The notes beneath the pieces are model-generated. The model searched no databases, was not told the origin of the DNA, and saw nothing but the letters and a program-made list of their open reading frames with translations. Made by a program: the position numbers and the translations under genes. Of a stretch of 22,474 nucleotides of DNA, positions 1,020 to 6,195 are shown in pieces. Position 1 is the first letter of the stretch; each line of letters opens with the position of its first letter. The stretch comes from a virus. Where the stretch lies: positions 1 to 22,474 of the IMG/VR virus record IMGVR_UViG_3300025889_001044, one strand, 5' to 3'.

Positions 1020-1165
1020 GGCCGGCTTGGTTCTGCCGCCGCGAAGCGTAGCGGCGGAACCTTGCCGGCCCTAGGATGGAAGGGGGTCTGGGGGAAACCA
1101 AAGGTGGTTCCCAGACTGATTCCCACCTAAAGCCCCCGTAGGGGGCTAAGGGCCGGGAACCACCT
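1020..1165 (-). other. Structured intergenic region with competing hairpins
   Basis: No convincing gene lies between 984 and 1164; instead there are several inverted repeats. (1) AGGTGGTTCCC (1102-1112) pairs with GGGAACCACCT (1155-1165), enclosing the 7-bp hairpin AGCCCCC/GGGGGCT (1131-1147). (2) The 1102-1116 segment can instead pair with 1086-1100 (GTCTGGG/CCCAGAC plus AACCA/TGGTT). (3) AGGTGG (1102-1107) can also pair with CCACCT (1123-1128). (4) A separate long three-part hairpin spans 1020-1070 (GGCCGGC, GGTT and CCGCCGC arms). Structures 1-3 exclude one another. There is no good T-run, so a simple terminator is not obvious; an attenuator, a 3' stability element or a replication origin are possible. 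Confidence 0.6.
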
Positions 1166-5909: not shown

Positions 5910-6157
5910 AGAAGCAGGAAACCACCCATTCGCGCCTGGAGGCGGTCGTCGCGAACCTATACGACGCCGCCACCATGCTCAAGATGGTCCGCATGAGCGG
6001 CGATCCCGCGGTCAACGCGGAGACATTCGCCGACATCGAGCTCGGCATCGATACGCTGAACCAGCTCGTGGTGAAGGCGATGGCCTTGGACGGCATCCGG
6101 CCGAAACCACGCCGGCCGCGATGGTACGACGGCATCCTCGCCGTGATCCAGAGCTGA
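5906..6157 (+). CDS. Small helical protein of the recombination operon
   Basis: This 83-residue protein starts at an ATG overlapping the stop of the Gp157/Gam-like gene (ATGA, 5906-5909), with GGAG eight bases upstream. Residues 8-30 and 38-62 look like amphipathic helices, followed by a basic proline-rich stretch (GIRPKPRRPRWYDGI, 63-77) that could touch nucleic acid. I recognise no family. Being the last gene before the terminator at 6162, it is co-expressed with the annealing protein, and a recombination accessory role is inferred from that only. Confidence 0.75.
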   Translation: MKKQETTHSRLEAVVANLYDAATMLKMVRMSGDPAVNAETFADIELGIDTLNQLVVKAMALDGIRPKPRRPRWYDGILAVIQS

Positions 6158-6161
6158 CGAC

Positions 6162-6195
6162 AAAAAGCCCCGAAGGACAACCTTCGGGGCTTCTT
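6162..6195. terminator. Bidirectional terminator between convergent operons
   Basis: A perfect 10-bp stem GCCCCGAAGG/CCTTCGGGGC (6167-6176 and 6181-6190) with an ACAA loop is flanked by AAAAA on the left and TTCTT on the right. It can end transcription of the plus-strand operon finishing at 6157 and of the late minus-strand operon finishing at 6230. Confidence 0.92.

Follow-up and report, generated by a model that had tools for sequence, protein, structure and literature searches.

The 154-nt element that directly follows the helicase gene (minus strand, 1163-1010) is most probably a phage replication origin. The window, namely, the whole stretch of DNA analyzed, is IMG/VR record IMGVR_UViG_3300025889_001044 and comprises 22,474 bases. 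As judged from sequence comparisons and predicted structures, the origin would resemble that of the plasmid RSF1010, with the initiator fused to the helicase. Relatives of this phage keep the layout of the element and trade the element and the helicase together for versions with a different sequence. We lean towards the view that a single exchangeable cassette contains both the initiator specificity and the origin and is swapped between otherwise near-identical replication modules, with at least six mutually distinct origin types.

The element lies on the minus strand between the helicase gene (2507-1164) and a small gene for an SSB-like protein (900-415), and the primase gene (3405-2494, minus strand) is located upstream of the helicase gene. 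The primase, helicase, and SSB-like genes adjoin, and no RepC-like gene was seen between them in these contigs, which are possibly fragments. The SSB-like gene probably starts at 900 rather than at 921. Its annotation is weak: one homologue matched the PHROG SSB family with an E value of 0.0034. Since searches of PDB and Pfam did not reveal a relative of the SSB-like protein, the SSB label rests on this single weak match. Protein searches with it of named phages and of 84,980 prokaryote genomes returned no match, and a nucleotide search of the phage collection also returned none. A sigma-70-like promoter of the SSB-like gene (TTGACA-17-TACCAT, 984-956, minus strand, 10 of 12 matches) is located outside the element, and relatives carry TTTGACA..TATATA-like promoters at the equivalent place. 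The hairpins of the element are outside the leader of the SSB-like gene because this promoter separates them from the gene. The promoter spacer contains a near-palindrome, GGCGgtatatCGCC, and the leader contains two GCCGGA..TCCGGC inverted repeats (984-900, minus strand); these are likely to be operator sites.

Read in the direction of transcription, an iteron-like site (AGGTGGTTCCC, site 1, 1165-1155, minus strand) overlaps the helicase stop codon and is the 5' arm of a nested inverted repeat. The 3' arm is an inverted copy (site 3, AGGTGGTTCCC on the plus strand, 1102-1112). The two arms are perfectly complementary over 11 bp and enclose a perfect 7-bp hairpin at 1131-1147 (AGCCCCC-GTA-GGGGGCT, or AGCCCCC-TAC-GGGGGCT on the minus strand), which is identical in the closest distinct relative, L139. 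A degenerate site (AGGTGGGAATC, site 2, 1128-1118, minus strand) is an alternative partner of site 1, and its CCACCT (1123-1128) is able to pair with AGGTGG (1102-1107) of site 3. A competing hairpin, GTCTGGG..CCCAGAC (1116-1086, minus strand), in which 1110-1116 pairs with 1086-1092, holds site 3 and part of the C-tract. The three mutually exclusive partners that the sequence-only reading had given for 1102-1116 are thus all present in the sequence, as is the strong 7-bp hairpin enclosed by one of these choices. No other primary sequence in the element is as well conserved as the doubled C-tract core, TTTGGTTTCCCCCAGACCCCCTTCCA (1102-1077, minus strand). The separate three-part hairpin that had been described at 1020-1070 was confirmed; it is a long bulged hairpin with 20-nt arms that are 85% complementary, and we propose that it provides the primase with a single-strand initiation site. 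Another degenerate iteron-like site (CCTAAGTGGTTCGATGG, site 4, 1017-1001, minus strand) lies between this hairpin and the promoter. The window element has no clear AT-rich stretch. Its 11-bp inverted repeat considered alone reaches only borderline significance (p about 0.06), given how C/G-rich the sequence is; it becomes convincing because the same layout is present at the same place in all relatives.

Searching with the major capsid protein revealed many related contigs, and 80 loci were retrieved with a profile built from the SSB-like protein. Together with loci found through the primase, the SSB-profile loci provided 57 loci with a recognizable helicase gene, representing 42 distinct sequences. 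The element follows straight after the helicase stop codon in all 57 loci and occurs as six sequence types with one layout. The repeats are AGGTGGTTCCC in type W, GACCGTTTCCC in type C, GACCTGTTCCC in type D, GACCGGTTCCC in type F, AAAGTGTATCC in type E, and CGGTACAAA in type B. They lie no more than a few bases from the stop codon and, in most types, are direct repeats. In types B, D, E, and F, the next part is AT-rich and contains CTTAAG or TATATA, and a G/C hairpin takes its place in types W and C. This part is followed by an inverted copy, two C-runs, a small hairpin (D and E), and the long bulged hairpin, the arms of which often include iteron-like cores. The core TTTGGTTYCCCCCAGACCCCCTTCC is near-identical between types W and F and similar in type C. 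Inverted repeats exceeded those of shuffled sequences in types B and D and in most of type E, and direct repeats did so in type F; types W and C were borderline. In L139, the 154-nt hairpin cluster is 95% identical to that of the window and thus better conserved than its surroundings, where identity falls to 88% in the SSB-like gene, 87% in the helicase gene, 85% in the promoter and leader, and 80% in the primase gene. The long hairpin of L139 has lost one base in each arm with pairing retained. In many relatives, an extra gene separates the element from the SSB promoter, and the element remains next to the helicase gene. This optional gene (approximately 110-165 aa) was noted in L141, L142, L154, L162, L205, and others, and the four proteins tested had no Pfam match. 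In L244 and L307, type D-like iterons occur together with CCTTAAGG and several additional copies in a mirror arrangement of larger size, which is apparently a different version of the element.

The helicase consists of an N-terminal PriCT-like region (PriCT_1 was found in 13 of 15 homologues), a RepA-type AAA_25 core (E value of 9e-32), and a C-terminal winged helix (about residues 385-447). Its best sequence match in PDB was RSF1010 RepA (1g8y), with E values of 3.4e-8 for the single sequence and 1.8e-11 for the profile, and RSF1010 RepA was also among its best fold matches. In the predicted model, residues 388-445 form a helix-helix-helix-strand-strand unit (helices at 388-427 followed by two strands), which on this model is a winged helix; the C terminus also showed weak sequence matches to winged-helix families. 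Searches of PDB and Pfam with the primase sequence returned no match. However, its model (pLDDT 71.5) had only two significant Foldseek matches in PDB, namely, RSF1010 RepB' (3h20, E value of 2.9e-7) and RepB' with initiator DNA (3h25, E value of 5.9e-5). The predicted fold assigns the primase to the RepB'-like family.

Winged-helix identity was at least 57% within an element type and at most 36% between types; therefore, every locus combines a helicase class with the matching element type. Seven phage pairs share primases that are 90-97% identical and SSB-like proteins that are 90-99% identical, yet carry unrelated helicases and elements. For example, L194 (type B) and L208 (type E) have 96% identical primases and 99% identical SSB-like proteins, whereas their winged helices are only 14% identical and their elements are unrelated. 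DNA similarity between these two phages ends inside the helicase gene and returns 162 nt past its stop codon. A like pattern was observed for L201 (type B) and L177 (type E), in which similarity returns at 167 nt. A return at 162-167 nt past the helicase stop codon corresponds to the promoter. Mapped on the SSB tree, the element type changed at least 14 times; on the primase tree, it changed at least 21 times. Since primases that are 97% identical are found with different elements, the helicase is the likelier reader of the variable repeats, and the results point to it in this role. Adjacency of the gene and element alone could account for part of this linkage. We also performed a gene-blind search with one type D iteron pair against 2.9 million viral contigs, which yielded 83 contigs. 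Among the 51 hits with an inverted copy, 49 were located within 150 nt past the end of a homologous helicase gene and the other 2 were at a contig edge. The remaining 32 hits were without the inverted copy and the C-tract, and many were visibly coding repeats.

The sequence-only reading had remarked that a place next to primase and helicase genes would suit a replication origin. This idea is supported by the layout of iterons, C-tract, and hairpin conserved after the helicase gene in relatives, by the likeness of the helicase to RepA and of the predicted primase fold to RepB', and by the joint exchange of the helicase and its element in a cassette. We propose that the RepA-type helicase uses its C-terminal winged helix to bind the iteron-like repeats beside its own stop codon. 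The helicase would then assemble and open the neighboring DNA, which is AT-rich with CTTAAG or TATATA in most types, and the strands of the C-tract would be exposed. The long hairpin may form on the single-stranded DNA and serve as the single-strand initiation site at which the RepB'-like primase would prime. The SSB-like protein, expressed from its own promoter just past the element, would coat the displaced strand. That the winged helix binds the repeats, that the element acts as an origin, and that priming takes place at the hairpin are inferences, as is the direction in which replication proceeds. Cumulative GC skew, which had been put forward as a check for an origin, did not agree with this expectation: the skew of seven long contigs was without a switch at the element. 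Its extreme was located 4-6 kb upstream of the element in several of the seven and apparently follows gene direction. The lack of a clear AT-rich stretch in the window element, its near-chance repeats, and a GTG motif that varies beside the hairpins also count against an origin.

In RSF1010, the iterons are bound by RepC, the DNA is unwound by RepA, and priming by RepB' takes place 3' of the ssi hairpins (PMC4234260, PMC4434180). The phage system shares with this IncQ plasmid (oriV, ssiA, ssiB) a RepA-type hexameric helicase, a primase with the RepB' fold, iterons, and hairpins that may form single-strand initiation sites (PMC4234260, PMC4434180). However, no separate RepC was seen and the winged helix is fused to the helicase C terminus, the phage origin would follow the helicase gene, and the iterons are inverted and the C-tract doubled. 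The GTG start motif of ssiA is also not constant beside the phage hairpins: by eye, GTG follows the hairpin in type W and most of type B and is absent in types D and E, and no GTG motif beside the hairpins was constant across types. We likened the element to the RSF1010 origin rather than classing it as a member because no separate RepC was seen and the hairpin start sites are candidates. In the archaeal plasmid pRN1 and Bordetella phage BIP-1, the origin is a stem-loop directly 3' of the rep gene, which encodes a helicase with a C-terminal winged helix and an archaeo-eukaryotic type primase, and the stem shape is retained despite sequence changes (PMC4234260). The hairpins of the present element likewise lie directly 3' of a gene for a winged-helix helicase. 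The pRN1 and BIP-1 proteins are single primase-SF3 helicase polypeptides and their origins are without iterons, whereas the present phage has separate RepA-type helicase and primase genes and iterons. The alpha protein of satellite phage P4, a helicase-primase, binds origin repeats through its winged helix (PMC4234260), as we infer for the present helicase; however, alpha combines its functions in one polypeptide, has a Toprim-type primase, and belongs to other protein families. The primase/helicase module of the actinophage AAA_25 group (Gordonia phage Azira) has a related helicase domain and a strongly folding non-coding stretch after the gene. However, identity is only 26%, the primase is fused, and a repeat search of this stretch revealed no iterons. 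The Azira stretch (L312:3605-3815), right after the primase/helicase gene, had a folding z-score of -6.7, which hints that 3'-located structured origins are common in the AAA_25 helicase family.

The sequence-only reading had regarded the alternative pairings as typical of attenuators and switching RNAs. A structured RNA in the helicase mRNA, such as an attenuator, a switch, a 3' stabilizer, or a terminator, would fit the strong RNA folding, the alternative pairings, and the location of the element toward the 3' end of the helicase transcript. The stretch at 1010-1175, folded as RNA, had a z-score of -5.7 on the minus strand and none of 200 shuffles was as stable. When the window was scanned in 372 sliding 160-nt segments, the lowest folding energy and two of the four lowest z-scores fell on the element stretch. 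However, the plus strand folds equally well (z-score of -5.3, again with 0 of 200 shuffles reaching its stability). The compensating base changes that had been sought among homologues are present: when the long hairpins were compared within types B, E, and D, 9 pairs had changed on both sides and none on one side only, as counted from few sequences (4, 6, and 7, respectively). The changes were always from one Watson-Crick pair to another, with no G-U pair. In RNA stems, G-U steps are usual. DNA pairing fits better than RNA pairing because there are no G-U intermediates among the compensatory pairs, and we consider that the covariation points to DNA. The claim of an attenuator or switching RNA was not borne out in other respects: the promoter at 984-956 intervenes, and the structures are not in the leader of a controlled gene; where relatives have an insertion before the SSB promoter, the element keeps its place beside the helicase gene and does not follow the downstream gene; and an Rfam search revealed nothing significant (best hit preQ1-II, located elsewhere, at 24.6 bits against a threshold of 47, E value of 0.86). 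As also noted previously from the absence of poly-T, the element is not a simple terminator, which we rejected because there is no U-run after the hairpins, and no terminator was called at the site. Therefore, an RNA role is very unlikely.

Readings at the DNA level other than an origin were also considered. The repeats may be an operator through which the winged helix regulates its own operon or the SSB promoter, making the element a regulatory switch. This would also explain the co-inheritance of winged-helix class and repeat type, and in the window and several relatives the element ends at the SSB promoter. However, the place and form of the element are unchanged in the many relatives with an extra gene before that promoter, the long covarying bulged hairpin and the conserved doubled C-tract are superfluous for a simple operator, and the adjoining RepA-like and RepB'-like proteins indicate an origin. 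We consider an operator unlikely. A packaging, partition, or recombination site appears highly improbable; hairpins and inverted repeats are found at such sites too and the cassette recombines often, but the element is strictly beside a replicative helicase in every locus, it adjoins the gene for a primase of the hairpin-recognizing RepB' type, and no packaging, partition, or integrase gene was recognized beside it in the window.

RSF1010-type hairpin-primed replication is known mainly from plasmids. If the element is an origin, this mode of replication is also used by uncultured phages of a widespread group, with the initiator built into their helicase. The six types would then represent natural initiator-origin pairs, some with a near-identical primase, and provide a test of how a helicase chooses its origin. 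These pairs would also address why phages diversify their origins; parasites, competing phages, or origin-targeting defences possibly select for this diversity. Furthermore, origins in uncultured phages could then be sought directly after genes for RepA-type helicases that carry a winged helix at the C terminus.

Other features of the window were noted. In the structural gene region, a 712-aa protein (18378-16240, minus strand) carries VGSVTG-type repeats in tandem and did not match any PHROG. A sigma-70-like factor (Pfam regions 2 and 4, PHROG 351) is encoded in the phage early region (5193-3781, minus strand). The hairpin AAAAAGCCCCGAAGG..CCTTCGGGGCTTCTT (6162-6195), the fold z-score of which is among the strongest in the window, lies between convergent genes that end at 6157 (plus strand) and 6230 (minus strand), and is probably a bidirectional terminator.
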